Shown here in pieces: positions 13,346 through 49,859 of a stretch of DNA of 51,156 nt (positions within the stretch are counted from its first letter, which is position 1; every line of letters starts with the position of its first letter). The DNA lies in the IMG/VR virus record IMGVR_UViG_3300028430_000211, positions 1-51,156 of that record. The stretch is one strand, 5' to 3'. The stretch is from a virus. The notes beneath the pieces were generated by a model that was not told the origin of the DNA, searched no databases, and saw only the letters and a program-made list of their open reading frames with translations. The translations under genes and the position numbers were made by a program.

Positions 13346-13391
13346 GCCCCCGTCGTGGTTTGCTCCCTCTGGCCACGGCGGGGGCTTTTTT
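13346..13391 (+). terminator. rho-independent terminator of the early block
   Basis: A 13-pair stem (13346-13358 with 13373-13385) has one G-T wobble and a 14-base loop. Six T residues follow at 13386-13391. Reading from the minus strand there is no T tract after the stem, so it stops only plus-strand transcription. It overlaps the last bases of the convergent late gene. Confidence 0.9.
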
Positions 13392-19300: not shown

Positions 19301-20223
19301 CCGACAGCACCCACGGGAGCGCCGACGAGACCGGCGGTCAGACCAGATACCAGATATTCCTTGCGGGCCTCCTCGTCAGCCAGAGGCAGCTCAGCCGCAA
19401 AACGCTCGCCCACTTGCTGGAGCGGCTCAGTGACGGCTTCTTCCGCCGTGCCCTTGACCGCGCCCTTGGCGGTCTGTGTCAGGAAGGTCCGGACAGGCTT
19501 CGACGCGGCCTCGGCGGCCTCTTTACCAACAGTCCTCTTAAGCGGGGCACCAAAGAACCTGCCGACACCGGGGACGAAGCGCTCAGCAACGGTCTCGACG
19601 CCTGCCTGTACCGGCGCAACCGCAACGCTCTTGGTGGCTTCGCTCTTGGTGAGTTTCTCGGTGCCACCCTCCGTGGCGCGGTCCACATTCGACCCGACGA
19701 AGAACGGAGTGGAGGTGACAGTACCCCCAGCAATACCGCCCGCCACAGTACCCACACCCGGGGCGATGGCCGTGCCCGCAGTAGCGCCAGCAAGACCGCC
19801 GATGAGGCTCGCCCCCATCTGGGGAGCGGACACAGCAAGGTTCTCCAGCAGCAGCGCACCAAGACCCGCGTTGCCTTGGGCAAGGTCTTCGATGGACGGA
19901 GCGCCGCCGGGCAGCACGCGCTCGGATTCCTTCTTCGCCTGACGCAGACCCTTGAGGTACTTCTCTTCCTTCTCTGGCGTCAGCGTGCCAGCCAGCTTCT
20001 CGATGGCGTAAGGCAGGCCAGACTTAAGCTGACTACCCGCAAGCGTCATACCCGCAGCCAGAGCGTCCCGCTTACCGGGATTCAGGTACTTAATGATTTC
20101 TTCCGGCGTGTACCCGGACTTCAGCGCGCCCTGAAGATCGAACCCACTTTGCCGAGACAGGTACTGGGCGATCTCCGCATCGGAGTACCCTGCGGCCCTA
20201 GCGCCCTTAACGTCAAAAGGCAT
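13390..20223 (-). CDS. giant internal virion / polyvalent-type protein with zincin motif
   Basis: This 2277-residue protein opens with two repeats of about 24 residues (GARAAGYSDAEIAQYL and GALKSGYTPEEIIKYL). An Ala/Gly-rich, membrane-seeking region (about 55-310) and a Pro/Ala linker (about 390-640) follow. HELLH at 1034-1038, with E1111 in SEFWA downstream, matches a gluzincin zinc peptidase. Long helical regions follow, with YFPFMRHGRFW near 1480 and a C-terminal part resembling large polyvalent-protein domains. It is probably packaged and ejected with the DNA. It is the last gene of the late block. Confidence 0.85.
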   Translation of the reverse strand: MPFDVKGARAAGYSDAEIAQYLSRQSGFDLQGALKSGYTPEEIIKYLNPGKRDALAAGMTLAGSQLKSGLPYAIEKLAGTLTPEKEEKYLKGLRQAKKESERVLPGGAPSIEDLAQGNAGLGALLLENLAVSAPQMGASLIGGLAGATAGTAIAPGVGTVAGGIAGGTVTSTPFFVGSNVDRATEGGTEKLTKSEATKSVAVAPVQAGVETVAERFVPGVGRFFGAPLKRTVGKEAAEAASKPVRTFLTQTAKGAVKGTAEEAVTEPLQQVGERFAAELPLADEEARKEYLVSGLTAGLVGAPVGAVGAQFERKVEPPAPGATATAMGLSPEEARAQTREEFQRIFESNLAVVQAENPQFTPDEARAEVMGRRNEMLAEAASRVWERANATTEPTEEGAPPAAGGAGVDVGAPSGAGVSAPVRGGVPGQAPAVGGAPDLGPVAGVEPLAVPPDAGEAEQPVELTPKVKMPMKERVAQWKATLPELASEMGVEIPGGTKLDPLARQLAQKAAKGLEFDPVTELKAYVGTPMDLAPEIAPAAPVAPPKIVPSLEQAKAATVETPLAPTAAPPPAPEPIQPAPVAEVTPPEPVAPVSAPPPTPGPNAELPPYEVLSYDQSVPAEPLLEPTPRPAPETELDQETQLASDFTRRLAEAPDTVAVFDRGTSTPGLIEDAKSIAASQKSYGDLPLTVDRIEPSQQESKANTADEDISASWFFPIALNDGTTVKLYADEGPDGKFEYRVEDDLYNTEALADYGEANRDVDTPLVPSGGTTKKLQAKTLAGDTQFLQQITDSVAARRRQVMAVAERELKFADRQREVSGITKEGAAREVTERKPLYTKKEARAAAKEAEVDTAPAAPDLEARAPKHAAAIKRAVMGRKSLDKATPEQVQMLNEALEMAEFMSPEVLERFIARKKANKEPLIIRGPVKWAIGARQDAPQGAPKSISAESASGAILTEYAKDFANWANSVIPALSSVRKELVKDTGLVTGEKNLPLADYEPRKHVVRLYADAIRHYVANPPTEGREDIRDTLLVHELLHAMERVMTPGLQGAIRAQWLKQVNVLLAGNPDGSKKEFLQLVRARTRAAKEKASELWTGGKVPFDYYQYLNPSEFWAVNATSILQQRFEGGFTPQQLTLLQKAVKFFRDIADRLTGNDNPVVRALDSVAKSDGRFRSRDMLNVLNGSPQMASRDEVQEDAEAFLSDDEIDRVLQDVSRQRARGGEFEERVRLSRNASEMVDGMGGLASIFHDRQLGLDTLTAIWRSLTGKGMRGVVNVLTTDDITVVAKRLGLDVKPVNNAVEQVTTDRVEALHRLEEHVRKWDAFNKKSEPGGQLLADVMAMSVRYDVDPTLAPSARAYMALDEALQALRANPNPDRAAIAAREEEIKRVYQGANTAEHEVIGGWNDLAKAEFGGGEGKRIFAMVKAAYKSSLDRHYELIQQWVEASHSTEERRAEVMTRIEEMFAPAFARKVYFPFMRHGRFWASVGTGEKGEFYLFESETQRNLFQIQRGRELRAAGDRRVVNIGNDLVGLRDRMTGEKSASAALNSVLGMLDNGIPDVETFKDSIFQMYLQTLPEGDMRRRFMTVKYKTGWSTDALRNFVVSQHAAASQLARLANGYKIRAAVSQLEDLLKSRPEDDGGPEPVERLPNVELLEPIVAELKLRAEEEITPNYSQAGEVDWDKVGALGTKAVFIMMMTSPKTAIIQLTQLPLIGMPVLSGRFGASKSIGMVNKYMGNFLTLKQFSFTHKDQEGEVITRTGDISMRESRYIKDLERSDPVRHAAMLQAWEYANIRNIFMSTFSGDLNDRTREPTAEFGVGQALKQGRYASALSQGVRSAFNFMGAAFQMTERASRELMFMASFELAFDKKLAAGMRPDAAVEAASKEAAELTNEALFNYTYYNRPRIMKKGLWRIPFQFQMYPMQMVSYLTRNFLGMLPMLNDKTQRKEAANKFFGTMMLTGVFAGVPGMGLLYLTTAAVAQATLNAWKEATGDEDDDPTSALSGVDLDTWFRSYFIPEMFGAGSDVAQGLGLSPEDAAMLARMWEFGPVGALTDLSIQPSTSITSLWFSQDLRADTLMGKTQELFFNTILGPAGGLVRNAATAVEYMQQGDGARAAEYVVPAFFRGAITAQRLDREGLVTKSGIPVMPPEFYSFAKLAAQTAGFGSTEAYQAQRENVEIRGVGKNIEAKADALVRRYVAAQTRYNATDGQNGEAFAKIMDDITEFNTENPLHAIGLDTLGQAAARKAEEQAGAIKGLTLDPKNPLNVYAGARRVEEAQ

Positions 20224-35523: not shown

Positions 35524-36204
35524 TTACCTCACGGGGTAGCGGACTTGCAGGTTGCGGTAGTTGTCCTGCCGGTTCTTGCCTTCACTCAGCTGCTTCAACA
35601 TCCCAAGCGCCTCGTCGTATCGCTTTTGGTACTGGGCGATGACGTCCTGCTCGCCTTTCATAAAGGTGTACGCCTCCAGCAGGGCTCCATAGAGCAGCAC
35701 CGAGTCGAAGTTCGTGCCCAGCCACGACGTGCCCGCCGTCACGATGGACGTAGGGTAGTAGAAGTAGTGTAGCTCGAACTGGTAGGTCGCGTCCGGCGTC
35801 GGGGCCAGGATGAACGAATCCTTGTCGAAGAAGGCGTAGAAGAGCGGCTTCCCGGCGGTGTTCGGGTTCGGGTAGGATTCCCGGAGGAAGCTGACGTCCT
35901 TGTTCAGCAGGTACTCGTAGTTACCGCTGCCGTCGATAACCGCCAGAGAGAAGTTGGCCAGCCAGTCGGCGGGGACCGTCAGGTACTTGTTACCCGAGGT
36001 GCATTGGCCGGTGACGTTCTTCCTCAGGTCCAGCAGCTGCACCGAGTTGAAGATGCGTTGCTCAGCCTGCTGGATGAAGGTGTTGATCTGCTCCGTGGAA
36101 GTCAGCGTAGCCGTTCCCGACCCCGTGGAGTCGGTCCACGTGGTTCCGGGGAAGTCGTTCTCGACGTACCCTTTGATGGTCTCGAACAGCTGCGCGTAAT
36201 TCAC
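35524..36204 (-). CDS. head-tail adaptor protein
   Basis: This 226-residue protein begins with a helix (MNYAQLFETIKGYVENDFPG). A STEQINTFIQQAEQRIFNSV helix, a strand region (YLTVPADWLANFSLAVIDG) and a C-terminal helical bundle (YKRYDEALGMLKQLSEGK type) follow. The four-helix plus beta layout is typical of phage adaptor proteins of the gp6/tail-tubular group that dock below the portal. Its distance to the capsid and portal genes fits. The match is by architecture. Confidence 0.7.
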   Translation of the reverse strand: MNYAQLFETIKGYVENDFPGTTWTDSTGSGTATLTSTEQINTFIQQAEQRIFNSVQLLDLRKNVTGQCTSGNKYLTVPADWLANFSLAVIDGSGNYEYLLNKDVSFLRESYPNPNTAGKPLFYAFFDKDSFILAPTPDATYQFELHYFYYPTSIVTAGTSWLGTNFDSVLLYGALLEAYTFMKGEQDVIAQYQKRYDEALGMLKQLSEGKNRQDNYRNLQVRYPVR

Positions 36205-36207
36205 GGG

Positions 36208-36384
36208 TTAGCCCATCGGCCCGCGAGAGTGGAGCCCCTTCTTGGCAGCGCCCGTGCCGCGCATCTTGATGCCGCCGCCCTTGGCCAGCTTGGTCTTCGG
36301 CTTGCCCGGGTGCATGGAGGACTCGTGCTTATGGACCGCCGAGGCGACCATCTTCTTGTCCTGCTTGAGGTCAGACTTGTTCAT
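36208..36384 (-). CDS. small lysine/glycine-rich virion-type protein
   Basis: This 58-residue protein starts at ATG 36384 (MNKSDLKQDKKMVASAVHKH). The middle HPGKPKTKLAKGGGIKMRG leads to GTGAAKKGLHSRGPMG. The glycine-rich basic end KxGxGAAxKGxxxRGPM is a known signature of tiny phage proteins near connector genes. It is one of several small basic products in this cluster. Function is unknown; DNA or nucleotide contact is plausible from the charge. Confidence 0.65.
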   Translation of the reverse strand: MNKSDLKQDKKMVASAVHKHESSMHPGKPKTKLAKGGGIKMRGTGAAKKGLHSRGPMG

Positions 36385-36386
36385 AG

Positions 36387-36779
36387 TCAGCTTCCTGTAG
36401 TGACGGTGACGGAGCCGACGGCTCCTGTGCATACTAGCGCATTTGGAATGTCCGGCAAACCGAGCGGATTGTTCAGGCCTACTGGGTTCCACCCCCACTG
36501 AATGACGCGGCTACCCTCGCCGGGATTGTTGTTGTCGTTCAGCCCGGACTGGAAATAGCTATTGTCGGGGCGGGGGTTGCGCAGGGCCTGCGGGTCATCC
36601 ACCGGGTACATACCCAGTTGCAGCTGCGGGTGATCTGGCTCCCAGCAGCTACGGCAGACGAGGATATTAACGTTCTTCGTCTTGATCGTGAGCTGGCGCA
36701 GCTCTTTGAGCTTAAAGCGGAAGCCGCACCTGTCGCACTGAGCAATTGCGCGTTTGCCTGTGGCGAACCTGTTGGGCAT
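36387..36779 (-). CDS. zinc-ribbon protein of the tail/connector cluster
   Basis: This 130-residue protein has an N-terminal zinc ribbon (AIAQCDRCGFRFKLKELRQL, then ILVCRSCWEPDHPQ) with two Cys-x-x-Cys pairs. A conserved LGMYPVDDPQALRNPRPD block and a Gly/Asn/Pro-rich C-terminus follow. The ribbon should bind one zinc ion. Similar proteins are found beside connector genes of many phages. It may help assembly of the head-tail joint, but this is inference. Confidence 0.7.
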   Translation of the reverse strand: MPNRFATGKRAIAQCDRCGFRFKLKELRQLTIKTKNVNILVCRSCWEPDHPQLQLGMYPVDDPQALRNPRPDNSYFQSGLNDNNNPGEGSRVIQWGWNPVGLNNPLGLPDIPNALVCTGAVGSVTVTTGS

Positions 36780-36782
36780 GGG

Positions 36783-37490
36783 TCACCAGAACGTCTGTCG
36801 CGGGGCGATGCGGAGGGGAGCCTTCTCACGGTCTTCGTCAGAGGCCAGCTGCCAAGCTTCGTCGTACATCTGCTTGAGCATCCCGGTACGCTCCATAGCC
36901 CCCGGGATTTTCATAGACAGGTGGAAGGCCAGCCCCGCCACCATGGCCGGGAGGAAGCGGAAGGGGATGTCCTGCGTCGTGACGCCGCTACCAGCGTCTT
37001 GAATGCGCCGAAGCCGCCAGTAGACGAAGGTGTAGTAGTTGGACTGGTCCGGCACAGGCCATACGGTGACCCGTGGGGAAGCGACACCCGAAGGCTCCGT
37101 GGCCCCCGACCGGCGCTCGATCCAGACCTGAATTGGCCGCCCCTGGGCGTTTTTGTTCGGAATCGTGGCGTAAGTGTCCACACTGATCCGATTAATGTTG
37201 ATGTCCGTCTGTTGGAGACCCGACTGGGTCCGGATGACGTGGTCGATAAGGTCGATGGTGTCCACGGGCAGGTTGTACGTAGCGGTGCCCGCTACAAGAG
37301 GGATCGACCCCTGGTCGATGGTCCAGAGGTTTACGCCCCGGTTGGCCCACTCGATGGACATCAGGTTCAGGCTCCGGCGAGCCGTGCGAAGATCATAACC
37401 CGTACGCAGCTCAGCACCGCACCTCTCAAACGCCTCTTCTACGAGGGCGTTCAAGTCGAGGTCGAACGTCGCTGTGCCACTAGTGGTCAT
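36783..37490 (-). CDS. tail accessory factor, P22 gp4-like connector
   Basis: This 235-residue protein contains DLNALVEEAFERCGAELRTG, YDLRTARRSLNLMSIEWANRG, VNLWTIDQGSIPL, then a beta region and a C-terminal helix. This matches the head-completion group related to P22 gp4, which binds beneath the portal and can have peptidoglycan-cutting activity in P22. No catalytic pair can be assigned by eye. It supports a short-tailed virion. Confidence 0.8.
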   Translation of the reverse strand: MTTSGTATFDLDLNALVEEAFERCGAELRTGYDLRTARRSLNLMSIEWANRGVNLWTIDQGSIPLVAGTATYNLPVDTIDLIDHVIRTQSGLQQTDININRISVDTYATIPNKNAQGRPIQVWIERRSGATEPSGVASPRVTVWPVPDQSNYYTFVYWRLRRIQDAGSGVTTQDIPFRFLPAMVAGLAFHLSMKIPGAMERTGMLKQMYDEAWQLASDEDREKAPLRIAPRQTFW

Positions 37491-37708
37491 TACTTCTTAA
37501 AGCCCTTAAGCGTTTCTGCGAGCCGAGCACGTTGACCCAGCTTGCCCGGAGCCTTGGCGGCCTTGGCGAGCTTCTTGGCGGGAATCTTCTGCCCTTTCGG
37601 GACGCCCATTTGTTCGCGGAGCGCCCCAGGCTTTTTTATAGCCCCGGCGATCCAACTCCCGCCCTTGGAGGCTTTCGCGGGCATCTTGGACTTCTTTATG
37701 TCGCCCAT
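37490..37708 (-). CDS. small lysine-rich protein
   Basis: This 72-residue protein starts at ATG 37708 (MGDIKKSKMPAKASKGGSW); GTG 37726, overlapping the upstream stop, is an alternative. Almost a third of the residues are Lys or Arg, including KKLAKAAKAPGKLGQRARLAETL at the end. It fits a DNA-binding or packaged peptide. It ends at the start of the P22 gp4-like gene. No family recognised. Confidence 0.55.
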   Translation of the reverse strand: MGDIKKSKMPAKASKGGSWIAGAIKKPGALREQMGVPKGQKIPAKKLAKAAKAPGKLGQRARLAETLKGFKK

Positions 37709-37722
37709 GCCCCGAGAAGTCC

Positions 37723-37824
37723 TCACTTGCAGCCCTTCATCGCCTTGCCGCCCTTGGCCATCTTGACCATCTTCGTCTTGGTCTTGCCCTTGCGGGCGAT
37801 GCCGTCAGCCTTACGCGCTTTCAT
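37723..37824 (-). CDS. very small lysine-rich protein
   Basis: This 33-residue product starts MKARKADGIARKGKTKTKM and ends KGGKAMKGCK. AAGGA lies seven bases upstream of the ATG at 37824, which makes it a likely translated gene despite its size. About half of the residues are Lys or Arg. It may act as a polyamine-like DNA-condensing peptide, which is speculation. Confidence 0.5.
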   Translation of the reverse strand: MKARKADGIARKGKTKTKMVKMAKGGKAMKGCK

Positions 37825-37840
37825 AGCCGTGTCCTTTTGT

Positions 37841-38089
37841 TTAGCTACGTTTACCCATCTCTTCGACCTTCTGCTCAAGGCGCTCGAACGCCCTGTCAAA
37901 ACGATCTCCAAGTTTGTCCACGAGCCCGTTCATCTCTGCCCGGGTCACGTGATCTCTCGCAATCTCCTCACGCGTCTTGTTGAGGAGGATGCTGATCCGG
38001 TTAAGCTCGTCCAGCTTGTGCTTCACAAGGAACCCCAGAATCCCCACAAGGCCGGTAAGGATGAAGTTCCACAGGGTCTCGATGGCCAT
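37841..38089 (-). CDS. small membrane coiled-coil protein
   Basis: This 82-residue protein starts at ATG 38089 (MAIETLWNFILTGLVGIL). It has a transmembrane segment (about 4-22), followed by a long heptad helix (DELNRISILLNKTREEIARD, then DRFDRAFERLEQKVEEM). The layout of a short N-terminal anchor and a long periplasmic or cytoplasmic coil recalls i-spanins, and also generic phage membrane proteins. It is far from the amidase, so a lysis role is uncertain. Its start sits against the end of the gene upstream of it. Confidence 0.65.
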   Translation of the reverse strand: MAIETLWNFILTGLVGILGFLVKHKLDELNRISILLNKTREEIARDHVTRAEMNGLVDKLGDRFDRAFERLEQKVEEMGKRS

Positions 38090-38090
38090 C

Positions 38091-38348
38091 TCAGCAGTTC
38101 CACGCACGCAAACTCTTGTTGATCCGGCTGTTCGGGTCGTTAGCCGTCTTCTTGCTGGTCAGCTTCTTCTTCATACCCGTCATCCGGGCACAGAAGCTAT
38201 CCCGACGAGGTCCCCCCTCGGGTTGCGGGGCCTTGAGCCCCGGCTTGCCCGGGTTCGCGCGGTTGTAGGACGCCCGCCCCTTGGCGTTCAGCCCGCCCTT
38301 GGGGTTCTTGCCTGCCTTACGTGTCCATGCGGGAGACTTGGCCATCAC
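38091..38348 (-). CDS. DUF6321-like small basic protein
   Basis: This 85-residue protein opens MAKSPAWTRKAGKNPKGGLN (after an extra Met). KGRASYNRANPGKPGLKAPQ follows, then RRDSFCARMTGMKKKLTSKK and NDPNSRINKSLRAWNC. The block order closely follows a conserved family of small phage and giant-virus proteins (DUF6321 as I recall it). It has three positively charged segments and two cysteines. Function is unknown. It overlaps the preceding gene by four bases. Confidence 0.7.
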   Translation of the reverse strand: MMAKSPAWTRKAGKNPKGGLNAKGRASYNRANPGKPGLKAPQPEGGPRRDSFCARMTGMKKKLTSKKTANDPNSRINKSLRAWNC

Positions 38349-38872
38349 ACGTACTTCTTCTTGACCTTGCCGCCGCGCTTCAGGGCTTGGCCCTGTTTAT
38401 TGTGCTCGCCCGCAAAAATGTTTCTGTTCGCAAGGCTAATCTCGCGCCCCCGCTTGTCGTACTTTTTCTCCTCTGGGGGTTTCGGCTTCGGCTTCGGCGT
38501 ATCTGACTTCATAGACTCGCGGAACGCTACACTGAAACGCTTACCCGCCGGGAGCCCACGGGTCTTGGGGTCACCCTTCGCAAGGAAATCAACCGCGCGA
38601 CCGACCGAAGTCTTTTGGCTTTCCTTGGAGCGGACGGTGTCACTTTCCGCCATCATCTTGTCGTACGCCTTCTTGTTGTCCATACCCGTGGGGGGACGAG
38701 AGGCGGGACGCGCCGGAGCAGCCCGCTTTGGAGCCGCGACTTCTTCCTTGAGCTTAGTAGTGTAGCTCTTGCCGTTCCACGTGAAGGTCTTTTCGCCGCC
38801 CTTACGAGCAGCGCGGAAGGCTTCGGAGAAGCTGCCACCAGCGGCCATCTTTTTCACGGGCTTCTTAGCCAT
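38345..38872 (-). CDS. lysine-rich protein with FSEAFRAAR motif
   Basis: This 175-residue protein starts at ATG 38872 (MAKKPVKKMAAGGSFSEAFR), overlapping the glycosyltransferase stop. AARKGGEKTFTWNGKSYTTK is a recurring phage motif. A Pro/Ala linker and a basic C-terminus (RGGKVKKKYV) follow. A second FSVAFRESMKS copy lies near residue 125, so the motif is duplicated. These motifs appear in virion-packaged basic proteins. Function unknown. Confidence 0.65.
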   Translation of the reverse strand: MAKKPVKKMAAGGSFSEAFRAARKGGEKTFTWNGKSYTTKLKEEVAAPKRAAPARPASRPPTGMDNKKAYDKMMAESDTVRSKESQKTSVGRAVDFLAKGDPKTRGLPAGKRFSVAFRESMKSDTPKPKPKPPEEKKYDKRGREISLANRNIFAGEHNKQGQALKRGGKVKKKYV

Positions 38873-40558: not shown

Positions 40559-40588
40559 GGTTATAGCACACGGTTACCTTTCCGCAAG
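40559..40588 (-). promoter_or_regulatory. possible promoter downstream of the HNH gene
   Basis: The minus strand reads TTGCGG, 16 bases, then TATAAC, whose last bases include the HNH gene stop codon. The -10 matches five of six and the -35 three of six. It would restart transcription after the capsid terminator for the downstream structural genes. Other spacings give no better match. Confidence 0.35.
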
Positions 40589-41097
40589 TTGTCGTGTGCG
40601 GTGAGTATCTGAAGATTGTTCTCCACGTGTAGCCCCGACACCAGCCTGCCGTGTAGCGGGATGGTATGATCCACGTGATGCACAATGCCGGTGGCGTCCG
40701 TCAACCGGCGGGCCTCGGCGTATATCTGGACGACAGCACGCAAATCTGCCCACGCTGGTGTACGATTAACCAGGGTTGCGCGGCGTTTAGCCCGCTTAGC
40801 CCGGCTTTTGTCGCGGTTGGCTATATACCATTCCGCCGCGCGCGCCCGCGCCGCGCCAGGGTTTTTTGTATCCCACGCTGAGGTTCTAGCACGGGCCTCT
40901 TCCCCGTGCTCGGTCCGGTACGCGGCCCTTGTAGCGCGTCGCTTAGCCGTATGTTTTTGGTAGTCCTTAGCTGCCAGCCCGCGCGCACATTGGCAGCACC
41001 CGCAATGCGCGGTGTACCGCTCGGTGCCTCCGCAGGTACGACAGGGTTTCCCCCGATACCTAGGATTCCCGCCAGTTATGGCTTCTTGCCTATTCAT
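40561..41097 (-). CDS. free-standing HNH endonuclease (homing type)
   Basis: This 178-residue protein starts at ATG 41097 (MNRQEAITGGNPRYRGKPC). An N-terminal cysteine cluster (C19, C22 and a C32/C34/C35 group) forms a zinc knuckle. A long basic helical region follows, then HHVDHTIPLHG (H141, D143, H144), VSGLHVENNLQILT and NLRKGN: the classic HNH layout of phage homing enzymes. It stands between the capsid terminator and the next structural gene, as expected for an inserted mobile endonuclease. The upstream in-frame extension to 41334 is capsid shadow. Confidence 0.8.
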   Translation of the reverse strand: MNRQEAITGGNPRYRGKPCRTCGGTERYTAHCGCCQCARGLAAKDYQKHTAKRRATRAAYRTEHGEEARARTSAWDTKNPGAARARAAEWYIANRDKSRAKRAKRRATLVNRTPAWADLRAVVQIYAEARRLTDATGIVHHVDHTIPLHGRLVSGLHVENNLQILTAHDNLRKGNRVL

Positions 41098-41196
41098 GCG
41101 CCGCACACCAAACCGGCTCAGCCGGGGACAGCAAAGTCTGCTAGGCCAGTCGGTACGAGTGATTTTCCTAGTGTAGTATTGGTAGCACCGGTCAAG

Positions 41197-41225
41197 AAAA
41201 AGGGGAAGGAGTTTCCTCCTTCCCC
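41197..41225 (-). terminator. rho-independent terminator after the major capsid gene
   Basis: On the minus strand a perfect ten-pair stem (41202-41211 with 41216-41225) closes a GAAA tetraloop. It is followed by five T residues (41197-41201), then CTT. It lies nine bases past the capsid stop. It is likely to let capsid messages accumulate while limiting genes downstream. Confidence 0.95.
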
Positions 41226-41233
41226 CTGATCTT

Positions 41234-42142
41234 TTAGGCTCCGGCGGAGCCGTAGATCGACAGCGGGTCAGACCAGCCGAACGAATAACGCTCGCGAGCC
41301 TTATACCGCACGTTCCCGGTATCGAAGTCACCATCCATGCCGGTGCTCATGGGAGCCCGGACGAAGTGCTTCAGGCCGTTCGGAACGTCCGTGGTCAGGA
41401 ACCACGCGTCCGGGTCGGTCAGGAAGTGGTTGACCGTGTAGCCCCCGGGAATAACGCCCATGGACTTGATGGCGTTGATGTCGTTGTCAGCGGTGCCAAC
41501 ACGGTTGGGCGTGTCGAGCAGGCGTTTAGCGACGAACATCAGGCTCGGCGGCAGGATCAGCTTACGCGGCTTGGCCGCGATGAGCAGGCCGCGCTCGTCG
41601 GTCCACGCAGCGATCTGAATGACGGCGGCTTCGAGAGACGTTTCATTCAGATCAGCGGGGGTGCTGGGGATGTTCGAGTTGAGATCACCGTTAGCCAGTG
41701 GGTGCGAAGCCGAGAACAGGGGCTGGCCGTCGCCGCCAGCGGCAGCAGCGGTGAAGCCGTTGTTCAGAACCGCAGCGCCCTTGGTCTGCTTGGTGTACGA
41801 CATCGCACGGGCCAGAGCCTTGGTGTAGCGCGCCGACAGGGAGTCATAGAGGTTGTCCTCGATGGCCTCTTCCGTCAGCGAGAAACCAAGAGCGATGGTC
41901 TCGTGGTTGTACCGAGCAGTCCAGACTTCCTGACCGTTGTCGTACGCGATGGCAGAACCTTCGTTCTTCACCGGTGCGGCGCTGAAGCCAGCAAGCTTGG
42001 TTTCTTCTTCGAACGAGCGCTCGGAGCTTTCGGTTTCGAAAATCTCCTTATGCTCTTCGCCGTAGCGGCTGTACTCAAGGCCGAACAGGGCGTTCAGACC
42101 CGGCAGGAGTTCCTTGAGCAGCTGTGCGCGTGAAATCGCCAT
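41234..42142 (-). CDS. major capsid protein
   Basis: This 302-residue protein starts MAISRAQLLKELLPGLNALF, then GLEYSRYGEEHKEIFETESS. RYNHETIALGFSLTEEAIED is an alpha-rich spine-type segment. GGDGQPLFSASHPLANGD (loop) and a C-terminal domain with PDAWFLTTDVPNGLKHFVR follow. This is the pattern of Mu gpT-like/HK97-fold capsid proteins. Position after scaffold and portal genes, and the strong terminator right behind it, agree with a highly expressed capsid gene. Confidence 0.85.
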   Translation of the reverse strand: MAISRAQLLKELLPGLNALFGLEYSRYGEEHKEIFETESSERSFEEETKLAGFSAAPVKNEGSAIAYDNGQEVWTARYNHETIALGFSLTEEAIEDNLYDSLSARYTKALARAMSYTKQTKGAAVLNNGFTAAAAGGDGQPLFSASHPLANGDLNSNIPSTPADLNETSLEAAVIQIAAWTDERGLLIAAKPRKLILPPSLMFVAKRLLDTPNRVGTADNDINAIKSMGVIPGGYTVNHFLTDPDAWFLTTDVPNGLKHFVRAPMSTGMDGDFDTGNVRYKARERYSFGWSDPLSIYGSAGA

Positions 42143-44269: not shown

Positions 44270-44662
44270 TTAGCCGCGCGAAATACCTCGCGGGTCCTCG
44301 ACGACTGACTCCACGGCGTCGTCGTTGATGATTCGGAACTCTTTCCCGTGGATTTTGACCCGGCTACCGGCGTGCGGGCGCGTCAGGATGAAGTCTCCGA
44401 CCTTGCACCACGGTCCAGAGGGGAACTTGGTCGTGTCTTGGTACGCATCCGGCCCCATCTTGAGTACGAAGAGCACCGGAGTGGTCAGTTCTTCGTACTG
44501 CTTGGAGATATCGGCCTTCCAAATACCCCCAGCAGTGCGTTCTTCGACCTCCGGAACCGCGCAAAGCAGCCGGTAACCCGTCGGAGTAGGTAGCTGAGTG
44601 GCCTTTTGGACCTCTTTCTCAGTATCTTCCATGGGTTCAACCGCAACTTCAGAAATCATCAT
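44270..44662 (-). CDS. GroES-like co-chaperonin
   Basis: This 130-residue protein has the GroES barrel pattern: GYRLLCAVPEVEERTAGGIW (roof-side strand and mobile loop), VLFVLKMGPDAYQD, KFPSGPWCKVGDFILTRPHAG and VKIHGKEFRIINDDAVESVV. The mobile loop, which binds GroEL, is at about residues 42-55. Phage co-chaperonins such as T4 gp31 help fold their capsid protein. Its location next to scaffold and capsid genes fits. GGAG precedes the ATG pair at 44662/44659. Confidence 0.85.
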   Translation of the reverse strand: MMISEVAVEPMEDTEKEVQKATQLPTPTGYRLLCAVPEVEERTAGGIWKADISKQYEELTTPVLFVLKMGPDAYQDTTKFPSGPWCKVGDFILTRPHAGSRVKIHGKEFRIINDDAVESVVEDPRGISRG

Positions 44663-44846
44663 CGTTCTCCATGCTCTCAGCGGTAATAATCAGGATGTCT
44701 TTGGCGTTCAGAAGCCCGCGATACCTGCCGCAGGCAAACTTATAATCGCCAATGTCCTTAGCGTGCCCCAGGGCAAGCTGCCTTTCGATTGTCGCGCAGT
44801 CTGCGTCGATCTTGGAAATGAGGTGCCTAATCAGTTCGTTGCTCAT
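44649..44846 (-). CDS. small helical protein between portal and co-chaperonin
   Basis: This 65-residue protein starts MSNELIRHLISKIDADCATI and consists of two helices with YKFACGRYRGLLNAKDILII between them, ending in ENDDDF. It overlaps the portal stop on one side and the GroES-like start on the other. The size and helix content would suit an assembly cofactor. No family recognised. Confidence 0.65.
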   Translation of the reverse strand: MSNELIRHLISKIDADCATIERQLALGHAKDIGDYKFACGRYRGLLNAKDILIITAESMENDDDF

Positions 44847-46420
44847 TTACGTCCTTTCGGGGGCGTTTGCTTACTGGGTTCCGGCTTTTCTCCCCCCTGG
44901 GCGGCCCCAAGGAGGGTTTGGAGCAGGTTCTGCTGCATTTGGGCTTTGTCCTTGGAGACTTGCGCGCCGAGCTTGAGCCCTTCGAGCTCCTGCTGGCCAT
45001 CCATACGGCGCTTTTCGCCCTCGGCTTTGACGCCTGCGTTGAGCCCGGCGATCTCCTTCTGGGCGTCGATGCGCTCGCGCTCGATCTCCAGCTTCTCGGT
45101 CTTCTCTGCCGCAGTCACGGCGAACTGCTGCTTCTTCAGGTCCAGCTCGCCCTGCTTGATAGCCAGCTCCTGCTGCTGCATCTGGACGATGGGGTCCTGC
45201 ATGGCCTGCTGGTTCTGAGCCATCTGGGCTTCGGCTTGGTTCTTCTGAAGCAGCTGGCTGGACGCGGCGGCGGCCAGACGCGAGATGTGAAGCTCCAGCT
45301 CCGGCGTCATCTCAGCATTCGGCGGCGGCAGCGGCACGCCCGCCTGTTCTTCCACCTGTTGGCGGTACTGGAAGGCCAGATGTTCAGCAATGTGCGCCTG
45401 CGCCGCAGCCATCATGGACTGAGCGTTGGGGTTCTGGCCCATCAGCATCTGGACCTTGGGGTCCTGAAGCAGGTTCATATGGACCTGAATGTGCGCCTCG
45501 TGGTCTTGGTAGATGAACGCCTTGACCGGCTTGTTGTTGATGAAGTCCATGTTCTCGGACACGGGGTCGCGGGGCTTCATCTCGTCCTCGTCCTTCACGA
45601 TGACGAGCTTCTCGGCATTCTTGATCCCCAGCGCCTCCAGCATCTGCCGGTGCAGGTAGGGCATGTCGTAGATTTGCGGCGCACCCTGAGCCAGTTGAAG
45701 GACCGCCTGATACTGGACGATCTTCTGGGCCATGGTGGCGGCGTTGGGGTCCGACACCGGGATGACGTCAACCTTGTCGTAGTCGCTCTTCTTGGCTGCC
45801 CGGCCACCCTCGACCGGGTCGTAGTCGTAATCCTCGGGCGTGTAGTCGCGGATGATCCCCTTCAGCAGGCGGAACTCCTGCTTCATGGAGTAGTGCACGC
45901 GGGCCTGAACAGCCGACATCACCTTCAGGGTGCGCTCAAGGATGGCCAGCGTAGTGCCCACGGGAGCCTGCGCCGACATGTCGCTGATCTTCATATCCGC
46001 CGCAGAGGCGAACCGGCGGCCTTCCTCCACGATTGTGCCTAGGAGGCTATACAGAACCTGCGACGGCTCTTTGTATGGGAGCGGCATGATGTTGTCGCGC
46101 ATGGTCCCGCTGGCCACATCCACGTCCCGCCACTCGGCAGGTGCGATGGGGGTGTCGTCGCCCTTGACCCGCAGCCCCTTAGTCTTGAAGCCCCCGGGCA
46201 GGTTGCTCAGCGTGCCTGCGTCCACCAGCTGGCGGATTAGTGAGGTACTGGATTTGGCGAAGGCCCCGATCAGGTGGATCAGGCCGAAGGCGTAGAAGCC
46301 GAAGCCCGGGACATAACCGTAGTGGACGAAATGGTTCCGACGCTGCTTCAGGTCGTCTTCCGGGTCCCAGTTGCGCCGGATGGACAGCACCTTCTGCGAC
46401 GACTTCTCGATGGTCACCAC
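44843..46420 (-). CDS. portal protein, C-terminal part (frameshifted)
   Basis: This 525-residue frame starts at an internal GTG/ATG-like position (MVTIEKSSQKVLSIRRNWDP) but is the downstream part of the portal. The same frame reads back to 46531 and continues the upstream frame (QCYDHDRYKLLELHVEISIP). The body carries FYAFGLIHLIGAFAKSSTSL and TLAILERTLKVMSAVQARVH, typical of phage portals. The last 200 residues form a long Gln/Glu/Lys coiled coil (EKTEKLEIERERIDAQKEI), like the barrel helix of P22-type portals. See the finding on the frameshift. Confidence 0.8.
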   Translation of the reverse strand: MVTIEKSSQKVLSIRRNWDPEDDLKQRRNHFVHYGYVPGFGFYAFGLIHLIGAFAKSSTSLIRQLVDAGTLSNLPGGFKTKGLRVKGDDTPIAPAEWRDVDVASGTMRDNIMPLPYKEPSQVLYSLLGTIVEEGRRFASAADMKISDMSAQAPVGTTLAILERTLKVMSAVQARVHYSMKQEFRLLKGIIRDYTPEDYDYDPVEGGRAAKKSDYDKVDVIPVSDPNAATMAQKIVQYQAVLQLAQGAPQIYDMPYLHRQMLEALGIKNAEKLVIVKDEDEMKPRDPVSENMDFINNKPVKAFIYQDHEAHIQVHMNLLQDPKVQMLMGQNPNAQSMMAAAQAHIAEHLAFQYRQQVEEQAGVPLPPPNAEMTPELELHISRLAAAASSQLLQKNQAEAQMAQNQQAMQDPIVQMQQQELAIKQGELDLKKQQFAVTAAEKTEKLEIERERIDAQKEIAGLNAGVKAEGEKRRMDGQQELEGLKLGAQVSKDKAQMQQNLLQTLLGAAQGGEKPEPSKQTPPKGRK

Positions 46421-47391
46421 GTAGGGAACGGCGATGCCGTCCTTGACCTCATCCTTGGTGTACTTGTCGTCCGGAATGCTGATCTCGACATGCAGCTCCA
46501 GCAGCTTGTACCGGTCGTGGTCGTAGCACTGAAGCCCATCTTCTCTGCGATGGCTTTCTCAATCTCGTCGAAGGCGTCGTCCGGCTCCGGCAGGTCCACG
46601 TCACAGTAGAACCCGGAGGTCTGGAGCCTGCGCAGCTCGTTCTCGGTCTTGCGCATGACATGCGTGACGCGAGGGCTCGTCTCCAGATTAGACGCCCCGT
46701 AGGGGACCACGACATCCTCGGCGGGGATATACATCGACACCTGCCGCCCCAGCGACGGGTCGTAATAGACCTTCTTGAAGGCGTTGCCCGCCAGACCCAG
46801 ACCCCACAGCATCCGCTCGTGCTCGGGCCGATACTCCACCATGACGTCGGTCAGCTGGTAGTTCATATCCTCCTGCACGCGCATAGCGGCGTCCCGCTTC
46901 TCGGGCGTCTCTTTACCGATAATCTCCGTGCGGACCGGACCCTGCGCCGGAAAGGTCTCCATCATGGTCTCGGCTTGGAACTTGACCAGGGCTTCGCTCA
47001 GCATGGGGTGGTAGACCCCACAGGCCCCCGGCCACGGCTCGGTCCGGTCCTCGACCTTCATCCCCAGCAGCTCAAGGCCGTCTACGTAGGTCTGAATCCA
47101 GTCCTTCCGCGAGGTGACGTCGTCTTCGAAGTCGCTCATCAGGTCCGAAGCCAGCTTCGACAGGACGTCGTCGTCCATCTCTTCCGCGAGGTTGTTGGCG
47201 AAGTCGTCTTCTTCCTCGTCCTCTTCTTCCTCGTCCTCGATCTCTTCCGCGTCCGGGTCCTCGATCTCGATCTCGATTTCCTCGACCTCCGGGGCGTAGT
47301 CGTCAGGCAGGTTGACGCCCGGCAGGGCTCCGCCGGAGAGGGTCCCATCCAGGCCAAGCGGGGCTTGGTTAAGCGACTTGTCGATAGCCAT
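46414..47391 (-). CDS. portal protein, N-terminal part (frameshifted)
   Basis: This 325-residue frame has genuine portal sequence through about residue 287: an acidic head of 70 residues with EDEEEEDEEEDDF, then DVTSRKDWIQTYVDGLELLG, YHPMLSEALVKFQAETMMET and LWGLGLAGNAFKKVYYDPSL. After the ATG-GGC-TTC at 46531-46539 the frame turns into an Arg/Ser/Thr-rich shadow, while the proper reading continues in the -1 frame. The full product would be about 849 residues. The portal is the ring through which DNA enters the head. Confidence 0.8.
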   Translation of the reverse strand: MAIDKSLNQAPLGLDGTLSGGALPGVNLPDDYAPEVEEIEIEIEDPDAEEIEDEEEEDEEEDDFANNLAEEMDDDVLSKLASDLMSDFEDDVTSRKDWIQTYVDGLELLGMKVEDRTEPWPGACGVYHPMLSEALVKFQAETMMETFPAQGPVRTEIIGKETPEKRDAAMRVQEDMNYQLTDVMVEYRPEHERMLWGLGLAGNAFKKVYYDPSLGRQVSMYIPAEDVVVPYGASNLETSPRVTHVMRKTENELRRLQTSGFYCDVDLPEPDDAFDEIEKAIAEKMGFSATTTTGTSCWSCMSRSAFRTTSTPRMRSRTASPFPTW

Positions 47392-49859
47392 CAGTAGTAT
47401 CCCCGTCCTCGGCTGGACTTGAAGTATTGAATCTCGTCGGGCTCATCGAGGTCGGCGGCGATGTAGCCGCCTTTGCGGAACCGCATGAGCGCCATGGACA
47501 CGGTGTCCACATAGTCGTCGTGCTCGCTGCCCGGAAAGCTGGCCACCTCGTCGATGACTTCTTCCGCCCAGCGTGTGTCGGGAGCCCAGACGCGCCCGGA
47601 GGCAAACAGGTCCGAGACCGCGTTAAGCCTACTAATCTTGTCGTTACCCCGGCTGGGGGTGAACTCCTGCACCGGTACGCCCATAGACCTAAGTTCGTAG
47701 ATGAGAGGAGCTCCGGACGCCTTCTTCTCGACGATTAGCCCATCTGGCTCCCACTCCCGGTACTCCCTGAGCACAGTCCGCTTGAGCTCCGGAAACTCCA
47801 TCCGGTCTCGGAACGCATTAAGGAGGATGATGTTGGCTTGGGTGGTGCCGCTGTCGTCCGGGTGGTAGAAGACACCCCACGTAGTGCAGGCTGAGTAGTC
47901 CGCCCGCTGGGTCTTCTCGAAGGCCGTATCCCAGGCCTGGAGGATAAACTCACACTTGGGCGGGTCGGACCTTTCCCAGGTTTGCCACCACTCCCGCTTG
48001 ACGATAGCGCTCTGATCCCCGGTGGGGTTCTGCTGGTACTGCGCCATCCACTTGGAGTTGGGCAGCTCCGTCTTGAGCGCGCTTAGCTCGTCCAGCGACC
48101 AGAACTCGGGCCACAGCGGATTGCCGCTCGGCAGCAGGGCCGGAAACTCAATAACCTCCCACTCGTCCCCGCCGCGCTGGGCGGCAGCCTTGATGACCTT
48201 GGCCGTCAGGTCGCGCTGCGACCACCGCGTCATGACGATGACGATAGCCCCACCGGGCTGAAGGCGCTGACGGGGGCCGGAGGTGTACCACTCGTAAGTC
48301 TTGTCGTAGATGTCCGGGTTGGACTCCGCCAGTGCAGCCTCTTGTTCGGAATTATGGGTAACAACGTACCCACGGCCAGCAAGGAAAAGGCCGTCTTCCC
48401 GCTCCACGGTGATGCACTGTACTGAGCCGCGTTGCTCCGTCTTCTGGGCCGTAATCGACCGGTGCTGTTTGTCGTGGGTCGTGCGCGTTCGGTATCGCTT
48501 GCGGGGCATAAGGGCGCAATCTTTCAGCTTGAAAGTCACCCGGTGCATCTCGCACGTACCGAACTTGCCCTTCGTTGTGTACGTACGCCGCTGGCACTTG
48601 CGCCCTAGCGACCGTAGCAGCTCCACAACCTGCTCGACCAGCTCAGCGTCTCTGTTGTGGAACACGCACTGCCCAGACGCAGTCACATTGCCGTCTGTAT
48701 CCATAAGCCCGCACAGAAGGTCCATCCGTTGCAGGAACGACGCGGTCATATACTGCTCGGGGATGTGCTTGTTGCCGAGGACCCCCAGCGTTTTTAGCTG
48801 GCTCCAAAGCCCTTTCACTCCAAAATTAAACTTGTCCGCTAGGTCTGTGGTCTCGTACCCACGACGTTTGAACTCGCCCCGCATAAACACCGCGTCATCA
48901 GGGTGCGCGGTCATACGCCCTAGGCACGACGTCCCGTCCCCGAGCCACGCCCCGAGCACCCACGGGTCAATCGGGAGGTCTATGTGGGGGTACTGCACCG
49001 CTGAATGGCGCGGGATCATGAACGCGCTGGACCGGGACTCGGTAAGTTCTTCGGTAGTCAGGTTTCGGTAAGGGTCCTTGGTCCGGGTAGACGTACGCAC
49101 ACTCCACAAGTGCTTGGCGTCAGCGTAAATAATCTCGCCATCGAACGTCCTGACCTCGAACAGCTCGCGGTCGTGGTAGACTGGCGACTTGGCTACTACC
49201 TTGGTAGGCCACCCATCGGGGCCAAAAACTTCGTCACCGACCTTAAGGTCACCCAGCGCCACAAACCCATTCGGCGTGGCAATCGGCGTCGAGACCTCAA
49301 GCGCGTGCGGGTCGTCAATAATGAGCAGGTCAGCGCCCTTACCCGTCACCGCACCGCCGACACCGATGGCGAAGTAGTCGCCGCCCTTGGAGGTGTTCCA
49401 TCGCCCAGCCGCCTTGGAGTCCGCGCTCAGCACGAGGTCCGGGAACACTTTCTGATATGCCTCGGTGTCCACGAGGTTCCGCACCTTCCGCCCGAAGCCC
49501 ACGGCAAGCTCAGCGGTATGCGAGCACTGGATGACCTTCTTGTGCGGGAACCGCCCGAGGAACCACGCGGGCAGCAGGTAGGACGCGAACTCCGACTTTG
49601 TATGTCGCGGCGGCATATTAATAATGAGCCGCTTGCAGGTACCGTCTGCTACGCGCTCAAAGGCTTCCGCCATCTTGGCGTGGTGCCGTCCTGCGATGAA
49701 GGTCGGCCACATGGCCTTGACGAACGGAATGTACTTGGTCTGGTTGAGCTTGCGGTCCTTGAGTTCCTGAAGCCGTTCCAGCTCAGCCAGCAGCACTTCC
49801 TGCTCTTGCAGGGGCAGGAGCGGAAGAACCTTGGGGATGTCCGCGAGAGAGACGTTCAC
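47391..49859 (-). CDS. terminase large subunit with intein
   Basis: This 822-residue precursor gives about 504 residues after splicing. The ATPase has NMPPRHTKSEF (81-91), the phosphate-binding loop, and LLIIDDPH (178-185), the Walker B acids, then VMTRW (542-546). The nuclease has AWDTAF (D644), LIVEKKASG (E711) and HDDYVDTV (D781, D782). Both activities are needed to package and cut DNA. An intein of 318 residues interrupts the ATPase immediately after H185. The start overlaps the small subunit gene by four bases. Confidence 0.95.
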   Translation of the reverse strand: MNVSLADIPKVLPLLPLQEQEVLLAELERLQELKDRKLNQTKYIPFVKAMWPTFIAGRHHAKMAEAFERVADGTCKRLIINMPPRHTKSEFASYLLPAWFLGRFPHKKVIQCSHTAELAVGFGRKVRNLVDTEAYQKVFPDLVLSADSKAAGRWNTSKGGDYFAIGVGGAVTGKGADLLIIDDPHALEVSTPIATPNGFVALGDLKVGDEVFGPDGWPTKVVAKSPVYHDRELFEVRTFDGEIIYADAKHLWSVRTSTRTKDPYRNLTTEELTESRSSAFMIPRHSAVQYPHIDLPIDPWVLGAWLGDGTSCLGRMTAHPDDAVFMRGEFKRRGYETTDLADKFNFGVKGLWSQLKTLGVLGNKHIPEQYMTASFLQRMDLLCGLMDTDGNVTASGQCVFHNRDAELVEQVVELLRSLGRKCQRRTYTTKGKFGTCEMHRVTFKLKDCALMPRKRYRTRTTHDKQHRSITAQKTEQRGSVQCITVEREDGLFLAGRGYVVTHNSEQEAALAESNPDIYDKTYEWYTSGPRQRLQPGGAIVIVMTRWSQRDLTAKVIKAAAQRGGDEWEVIEFPALLPSGNPLWPEFWSLDELSALKTELPNSKWMAQYQQNPTGDQSAIVKREWWQTWERSDPPKCEFILQAWDTAFEKTQRADYSACTTWGVFYHPDDSGTTQANIILLNAFRDRMEFPELKRTVLREYREWEPDGLIVEKKASGAPLIYELRSMGVPVQEFTPSRGNDKISRLNAVSDLFASGRVWAPDTRWAEEVIDEVASFPGSEHDDYVDTVSMALMRFRKGGYIAADLDEPDEIQYFKSSRGRGYY
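48351..49304 (-). other. LAGLIDADG intein in terminase (class 3 features)
   Basis: Residues 186-503 of the precursor form an intein. It begins with Ala (ALEVSTPIATPNG), not Cys or Ser, and ends VVTHN followed by Ser504 of the terminase. Block A GDLKVGDEVFG, block B ADAKHLW, block F VQCITVE and block G GYVVTHN are present. W252, C482 and T501 make the W-C-T set that marks class 3 inteins, which use the block F Cys as first nucleophile. The homing endonuclease shows VLGAWLGDG (301-309) and LLCGLMDTDG (381-390), both with their acids. Confidence 0.9.

Follow-up and report, generated by a model that had tools for sequence, protein, structure and literature searches.

A short conserved peptide, referred to below as the tag, closes many of the small basic proteins encoded beside the head genes in a lineage of phages that includes the complete virus record IMGVR_UViG_3300028430_000211 (51,156 bases), which is the window analysed here. 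Comparison of translated open reading frames (ORFs) shows that this peptide is added, at or near the C-terminal end, to bodies that differ from one another and are left unlinked by blastp. We read the locus, with a confidence slightly short of even and by analogy, as a cassette of changing content that encodes small, basic cargo proteins of the virion, targeted by a C-terminal tag and comparable to the internal proteins of T4, though not part of that family. In the window, five small basic ORFs of 58, 72 (rather 78), 33, 84, and 175 residues lie on the minus strand among adaptor and connector genes; among these five only p33 and p58 (named by their lengths) are tagged. A first-pass annotation of the same DNA had pointed out recurring signatures in several of the five proteins. 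Two of these signatures are versions of this mobile tag on many proteins, which that annotation had missed.

Sequence and Conservation of the Tag

The 16-residue form of the tag, exemplified by RADGCATKGKTKGRFV, was found at or near the C-terminal end of 475 unique ORF products. Form A resembles ASKRADGCATKGKTKGRFV, and form B, carried by p58, is RGTGAAKKGLHSRGPMG (positions 36211-36261, minus strand, E 1.0e-13); the copy inside p33 is KADGIARKGKTKTKMV (37765-37812, minus strand, E 2.4e-5, 24.3 bits). The first tag profile used 35 distinct rows of 16 residues, selected with a pattern from which the commonest form ("ADG") was excluded. It detected 285 domains of at least 8 bits, in 278 of the 7,914 forward ORFs; the 9,241 reverse ORFs had none, their highest score being 7.4. 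After the addition of tag-recruited loci, there were 546 such domains in 11,324 forward ORFs and 0 in 13,394 reverse ORFs. Chance low-complexity ORFs are ruled out by this last figure and by the restriction of the homologs of the five proteins to one strand.

The pattern [DN]Gxxx[RKQ]G[KRH]T[KR] is matched by 417 of the 475 unique tagged products, forms outside it including those of the GGGIExRGKTKG type, and the commonest residues of the tag are ASKRADGC-A-x-[K/R]-G-K-T-[K/R]-G-[K/R]-M-V. The tag is the exact C-terminal end, four residues past GKT[K/R], in 282 of the 417 pattern matches, and most others lie within about 30 residues of the end. A second class, which includes p33, continues into a short Gly/Lys tail that often terminates in Cys. 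Because the pattern behind the 417 tags itself fixes [DN]G, G, and T, conservation was taken from 145 cluster representatives, selected by profile score and aligned, where the Thr and two Gly never vary and Asp, Ala, and Lys are each kept in at least 90%.

These invariant positions bear on whether the tagged proteins act as DNA-condensing peptides, which together with the tag would neutralise or bend packaged DNA, the tag being a DNA- or phosphate-binding motif and not an address label. We hold this idea, which was that of the first-pass annotation, to be unlikely. The strong positive charge of the tagged proteins agrees with it, as does the fit of the tag core to [AG]x4GK[ST], a phosphate-binding pattern, in 401 of 417 tags; the selection of these tags had set the Gly and Thr of that pattern in advance. 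No NTPase domain was detected. However, the conservation in the 145 representatives is more specific than charge requires, and condensation alone gives no reason why the tag should be limited to one capsid lineage, as described below.

Between loci, the tag cores differ by a proportion of synonymous differences (pS) of 0.746 and of nonsynonymous differences (pN) of 0.228 (22,825 pairs), and within loci by 0.658 and 0.192, respectively (180 pairs); choosing the cores by a residue pattern depresses pN and leaves pS unaffected. Since the residues are maintained and synonymous sites are almost saturated, it is, on this codon comparison, the peptide and not the nucleotide sequence that is conserved in the tag. 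The near-saturated synonymous sites also rule out a repeat at the DNA or RNA level. Nor has the tag in general been copied recently within single genomes, given the within-locus pS, yet 4 of the 180 within-locus pairs are identical in DNA. Against the PDB, the tag profile returned 15 rows, all of one dehydrogenase subunit at E of about 0.63, and a PHROGs search with pieces of the tag returned nothing relevant. No match was obtained by tblastn of p58 or the tag against named phages, with the low-complexity filter as the probable cause, and literature searches, including searches by the tag letters, revealed no description of the tag among the matches listed.

Distribution of the Tag

Loci were collected as the best 80 found by the adaptor gene, further ones found by the DUF6321 domain, and the best 80 of 199 confirmed by the tag. 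The loci recruited by adaptor or DUF6321 encode, from capsid to adaptor, a series of small basic proteins that vary between phages but end alike. Across 101 loci, 263 of 276 tags lie between the capsid and adaptor genes, 13 after them, and none before, in a count that under-sampled the stretches before the capsid gene. Tags were present in 32 of 33 adaptor-recruited capsid-to-adaptor loci and in 25 of 29 recruited by DUF6321, with up to five tags per locus in these two groups, and in all 33 recruited by the tag (up to six). In whole records, the tag gave 59 matches at E<=1e-3 (36 and 23 in two sets of records), every one of them on the downstream side of the capsid gene and in the adaptor region; for G004, G024, and G028 this holds only when the record is read as circular, and one match in G015 falls just past the adaptor. 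Weaker matches are not all in this region (G027:31296, E 0.03).

Among 44 records, the tag (E<=1e-3) was found in 23 of 23 whose capsid protein is at least 74% identical to that of the window. It was found in none of five with a capsid identity of 63-67% (G019, best E 0.0064; HTVC027P; HTVC023P; 023Pt_psg01; DSL-LC04) and in none of 16 without the capsid (best E 0.020 and 0.030), the latter all being DUF6321-recruited phages, three of them picked for lacking lineage genes. Any of the 44 records may be a fragment. In a subset of 19 of the records recruited by adaptor or DUF6321, the corresponding counts are 13/13, 0/1, and 0/5. The best 80 of the 199 confirmed tag-only loci in viral contigs all have a homolog of the capsid, adaptor, Zn-ribbon, or connector protein. 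A collection of species genomes yielded 43 pattern stretches, of which 4 were confirmed, three near lineage genes and the fourth in a likely chimera. Synechococcus phage MinM2, to which the Planktothrix phages Pag-Yong1 and Pra-JY27 are related, has one tagged protein and also a DUF6321 protein.

This distribution makes it improbable, in our judgement, that the tagged proteins are non-virion, host-takeover proteins acting inside the infected cell, with a tag that binds a host factor such as the ribosome, polymerase, a protease, or a chaperone. Their variable bodies would suit an arms race with the host, and virion detection is lacking for this lineage; their genes nevertheless stand among head genes with overlapping stop and start codons, the tag follows the capsid lineage, and of the four stretches confirmed in species genomes three are near lineage genes and one is probably chimeric.

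Diversity of the Tagged Bodies

The 437 tagged bodies of at least 25 residues fall into 186 blastp clusters, including 152 singletons and one single-linkage cluster of 161; the number of body families is uncertain in both directions because clustering may wrongly divide or merge sequences this short, basic, and low in complexity. The totals 475 and 437 are of unique proteins, and locus and ORF counts include duplicates from loci on the same contig. Body pairs from the same locus are in different clusters in 405 of 442 cases. Tagged proteins have a median length of 108 residues and a median net charge of +14, and 433 of the 437 bodies are positive.

Several stretches recur as body modules in forward ORFs and in no reverse ORF: the HKHE stretch, also found in p58 (50 ORFs), KGAPKSMxKHE (48 ORFs), and GGxPGQWSARKA, which we take to be DUF5872-like (38 ORFs). 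In 14 of 108 DUF6321 proteins, the tag is appended past the normal final Cys, a count that leaves out one further match judged false by eye, and in L068 a single ORF combines a tag with residues characteristic of the p72 end. When 145 of the 186 cluster representatives (longest first) were compared with Pfam and PHROGs, only DUF6321, an acyltransferase chimera, and three weak Pfam rows were obtained. In L174, an acyltransferase is apparently joined to a phage start and a tag; this ORF is included in the tagged ORF count.

The Five Small Basic Proteins of the Window

Judged by their conservation, the five small frames are genes, as the first-pass annotation had held. Homologous ORFs occur on the gene strand in 114 (p58), 75 (p72), 71 (p33), 193 (DUF6321), and 16 (p175) loci and never on the reverse strand, and tblastn relatives were found in 42 (p58), 47 (p72), 33 (p33), 44 (DUF6321), and 10 (p175) of the 80 adaptor loci. 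pN is below pS in every comparison (121/121 for p58, 79/79 for p72, 124/124 for p33, 195/195 for DUF6321, and 25/25 for p175), in stretches picked by protein similarity, which biases toward this outcome; those of p33 are short (16-24 codons in the best ones), and some are tags of other proteins. Conservation across relatives, proposed as a check in the first-pass annotation, is thus supported, so that its refutation for lack of conservation fails. The sizes given there stand for the products of 58, 33, and 175 residues, and the "85" protein has 84 residues, starting at the ATG at 38345. The "72" protein probably has 78 residues, beginning at a GTG at 37726 that overlaps the stop of p33, because 42 of its 75 homologs keep the N-terminal motif [MVL]RxxRG[MI]G. 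Lysine richness is as described earlier, Lys and Arg together amounting to 14/58, 20/72 (22/78), 13/33, 21/84, and 45/175 residues; the accompanying richness in Gly (9/58, 10/72, 5/33, and 9/84) does not extend to p175 (a modest 15/175). Nor is the cluster contiguous, an SU10 adaptor, a 130-residue Zn-ribbon-like protein, and an 82-residue hydrophobic and charged protein standing among the five.

The p58 protein (36208-36384, minus strand; 142 homologous ORFs in 114 loci) consists of the HKHE module and the 17-residue tag B at its end. Of 33 records, 14 each contain a single match to tag B, which reaches E<=1e-6 in 12 of them and is weak in the other two (G003, 0.003; W03, 0.007); the length of tag B to the stop is 17 residues in all 68 regular-expression matches among the 142 homologous ORFs. 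Such constancy would suit assembly factors, that is, scaffold-like or connector-associated peptides for head or neck assembly that need not stay in the particle. As an account of the tagged proteins in general we consider this very unlikely, since the copy number of form A and the variability of the bodies are ill-suited to a fixed assembly step; among the small proteins it is most plausible for p58, because tag B occurs once per record and p58 is encoded beside a connector gene. A distant form of tag B, NYSRGGGAAVRGMGFKGVF, is the C-terminal end of gp51 of HTVC023P (L170 15981-16364, E 0.007).

The p33 protein (37723-37824, minus strand; 72 homologous ORFs in 71 loci) comprises the tag and a short KMAKGGKAMKGCK tail. 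The good ribosome site ascribed to it earlier was confirmed as AAGGA seven bases ahead of the ATG. Contig L001, 99.9-100% identical to the window in aligned stretches, is without the p33 gene, which counts against the observation of five genes; it also lacks stretches of 132, 117, 139, and 52 window bases, and its capsid and p175 frames are broken. Because its deletions break these two frames as well, we judge L001 to be a misassembled contig and the missing gene a likely assembly artefact. L001 is still counted in the tag-scan and adaptor-locus figures, and its near-zero pS dropped it from the pN/pS comparison.

The gene of p72/p78 (37490-37726, minus strand; 75 homologs in 75 loci) has the probable GTG start given above and an alternative ATG at 37708. 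The basic p175 protein (38345-38872, minus strand; 17 homologous ORFs) contains a F..AF..AR / TFTWNGKSYTT module and ends untagged in GGKVKKKYV, unlike 14 of its 17 homologous ORFs, which are tagged. A regular expression for the F..AF..AR / TFTWNGK module (38741-38830, minus strand) found 24 forward and 0 reverse ORFs, of which 23 are tagged.

DUF6321 and Evidence From Virions

The 84-residue protein (38091-38345, minus strand) spans the full DUF6321 domain (PF19846, profile positions 1-72 of 72, E 2.7e-20, 73.2 bits against a gathering score of 28.5), and its final SLRAWNC conforms to the C-terminal W-x-C feature of the domain. It is a full-length member encoded by head genes; members in T4-like and T7-like phages are encoded by head, neck, or terminase genes. 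In the T4-like cyanophage sequences translated for this analysis, DUF6321 is the C-terminal domain of proteins of 271-490 residues, and most PHROG matches of the 84-residue protein are at or near the C-terminal ends of longer proteins, whereas here the domain stands alone and, in relatives of this phage, may bear an extra tag. In phages unrelated to one another, its gene lies before gp16 (P-SSM2), between the genes for capsid and tail tube (P-SCSP1m), between those for scaffold and capsid (HTVC304P), and before the terminase large subunit (P-TIM68); in MaMV-DH01 it is not near head, neck, or terminase genes.

The DUF6321 protein of S-H34 matches positions 108049-109518 of S-CREM2 (49.4%). Mass spectrometry detected ORF137 of S-CREM2 (108049-109521) in virions, from 4 unique peptides that cover 4.1% of it, according to the table consulted (PMC10665884, Table 3), and the C-terminal end of gp137, when translated, is DUF6321. 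The S-B43 homolog is annotated as T4-like structural protein, GC0119, and the P-SSM2 protein is T4-GC 119. This virion detection is support for DUF6321 and not for the tag. For S-SM1, 41 virion proteins were reported by Sullivan et al. (PMC3037559), and for S-SCSM1 45, DUF6321 going unmentioned among them in the part of the text consulted (PMC9602691); the portion seen of a further paper contains nothing on small proteins (PMC9599517). A literature search for DUF6321 found no paper, and searches by related-phage names found no virion study of this lineage among the matches listed. A PDB sequence search returned nothing for DUF6321 and two chance-level rows for p58, and Foldseek with a moderate DUF6321 model (predicted local distance difference test, pLDDT, 74; predicted template modelling score, pTM, 0.48) gave two rows with E above 7. 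A four-Cys variant of DUF6321 occurs in MaMV-DH01, S-H34, and S-CREM2 (L085 3501-3764; L088 2328-3749; L257 1550-3022), where the Cys residues could be a metal site or form disulfides.

Possible Role of the Tag and Comparison With T4 Internal Proteins

If the tag is a targeting signal, its docking partner would be part of the head in this lineage: the capsid, the scaffold, the portal, or the connector. The bodies would in this way enter the particle as minor cargo of the virion; there their charge would keep them with the packaged DNA, and they might be ejected together with that DNA. In the window, p33 is a near-minimal tag and p58 carries form B; the DUF6321 protein, p72/78, and p175 belong to the same cassette and are untagged. 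The likeness to T4 IPI, IPII, IPIII, and Alt is that of a diverse set of head cargo, in one phage group, with only a short terminal peptide in common. Virion proteins of phage P1 are also reportedly discussed in a paper with the capsid targeting sequence (CTS) (PMC9024508), a likeness of term only. In the portions of the T4 literature consulted, the internal proteins are loaded into the head via a conserved CTS (PMC3012670, PMC7697877, PMC9391042), are described as injected, and include IPI, which inhibits a restriction system (PMC9391042). The T4 CTS and the tag are likened by description, not by alignment, and membership of the tagged proteins in the T4 internal-protein family is not claimed, because the peptide is at the opposite end and cleavage is unproven.

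Several points weigh against a targeting role. The T4 CTS has about 10 residues, is N-terminal, and is cut off by the head protease, in the part of the source consulted (PMC7697877), whereas the tag has 16-17 residues at or near the C-terminal end; the structural proteins scanned, a subset of the window proteins, included none named as a prohead protease. (Two capsid-protease fusion families align, through their second half, with the capsid protein itself.) Of the five window proteins, three are untagged, and 0 of 75 p72 homologs were scored as tagged. Eight of the 23 tagged records had been recruited by the tag and five had given rows to its profile; tag and capsid lineage could also co-occur by descent alone, and with such a composition the tag might just as well bind DNA or RNA. 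The sole mass-spectrometric detection is of a DUF6321 protein of another phage at 4.1% coverage, and no tagged protein or member of this lineage was reported in virions in the literature searched. For the packaging suggested by the first-pass annotation, the support is indirect and comes from the S-CREM2 detection and the structural annotation of the S-B43 homolog; its placing of the five proteins in a head or assembly context agrees with their position among head genes.

A further step, possible but doubtful, is that a widespread aquatic phage lineage evolved its own C-terminal capsid-targeting signal, independently of T4, to load rapidly changing small proteins that are injected with the DNA, for example against first-line host defences. 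Should the tag prove to be an address label, it would single out in one step hundreds of potential virion proteins from uncultured phages, whose 145 scanned representatives match almost nothing in Pfam or PHROGs; it would also offer a transferable signal for packaging into phage heads and point to a locus in which to seek injected anti-defence proteins. Even as only a DNA-binding tail, it would be a defined motif of small basic phage peptides.

Neighbouring Head and Neck Genes

The head and neck genes are on the minus strand throughout, from the terminase large subunit to two adaptor/connector proteins of the SU10 family (PF24175). The order is terminase large subunit, portal-like ORFs, GroES-like protein, an acidic 316-residue protein that we read as scaffold-like, and the capsid protein, followed by small proteins, a glycosyltransferase (so named in the first-pass annotation), the small basic cluster, and the two adaptor/connectors. 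The major capsid protein (41234-42142, minus strand; Phage_capsid_4, E 1e-12; phrog_371, E 4.9e-20) forms the upstream border of the locus. At the other end are the SU10-type head-tail adaptor of 235 residues (36783-37490, minus strand; PF24175, 44.7 bits) and a second connector of this family of 226 residues (35524-36204, minus strand; PF24175, 93.8 bits), the cut-off being 27 in both cases. The 130-residue protein (36387-36779, minus strand) has a CxxC...CxxC Zn-ribbon-like N-terminal end, with a weak, below-cut-off Pfam match to Zn_ribbon_CSL (E 0.033), and has a homolog in 80 of the 80 adaptor loci. The 82-residue protein (37841-38089, minus strand; phrog_7885, unknown function, E 1.3e-4), with one hydrophobic N-terminal segment and a charged tail, has one in 27 of the 80. 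Stop and start codons overlap as TGATG (glycosyltransferase/p175 and p175/DUF6321), GTGA (p33/p78), and TAATG (p72/adaptor).

The terminase large subunit (822 residues, 47391-49859, minus strand) contains an internal LAGLIDADG-like stretch at residues 381-432 (Hom_end 366-426); because of this stretch, and because alignments to its best relatives come as two pieces with about 60% coverage, it looks like an intein-bearing gene. The portal gene appears split or frame-broken, since two adjoining ORFs (46414-47391 and 44843-46420, minus strand) match successive parts of the phrog_1216 portal profile (121-268 and 352-704 of 714). The GroES-like co-chaperonin (44270-44662, minus strand; phrog_3188) lies between the portal-like and scaffold-like genes, and a GroES annotation is likewise present in HTVC027P and HTVC023P. 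A long ORF overlapping the end of the capsid gene (40561-41334, minus strand) has a sub-threshold HNH match, and an ORF of 2277 residues (13390-20223, minus strand), with a sub-threshold match to the LPD39 polyvalent protein, possibly encodes an ejected protein.

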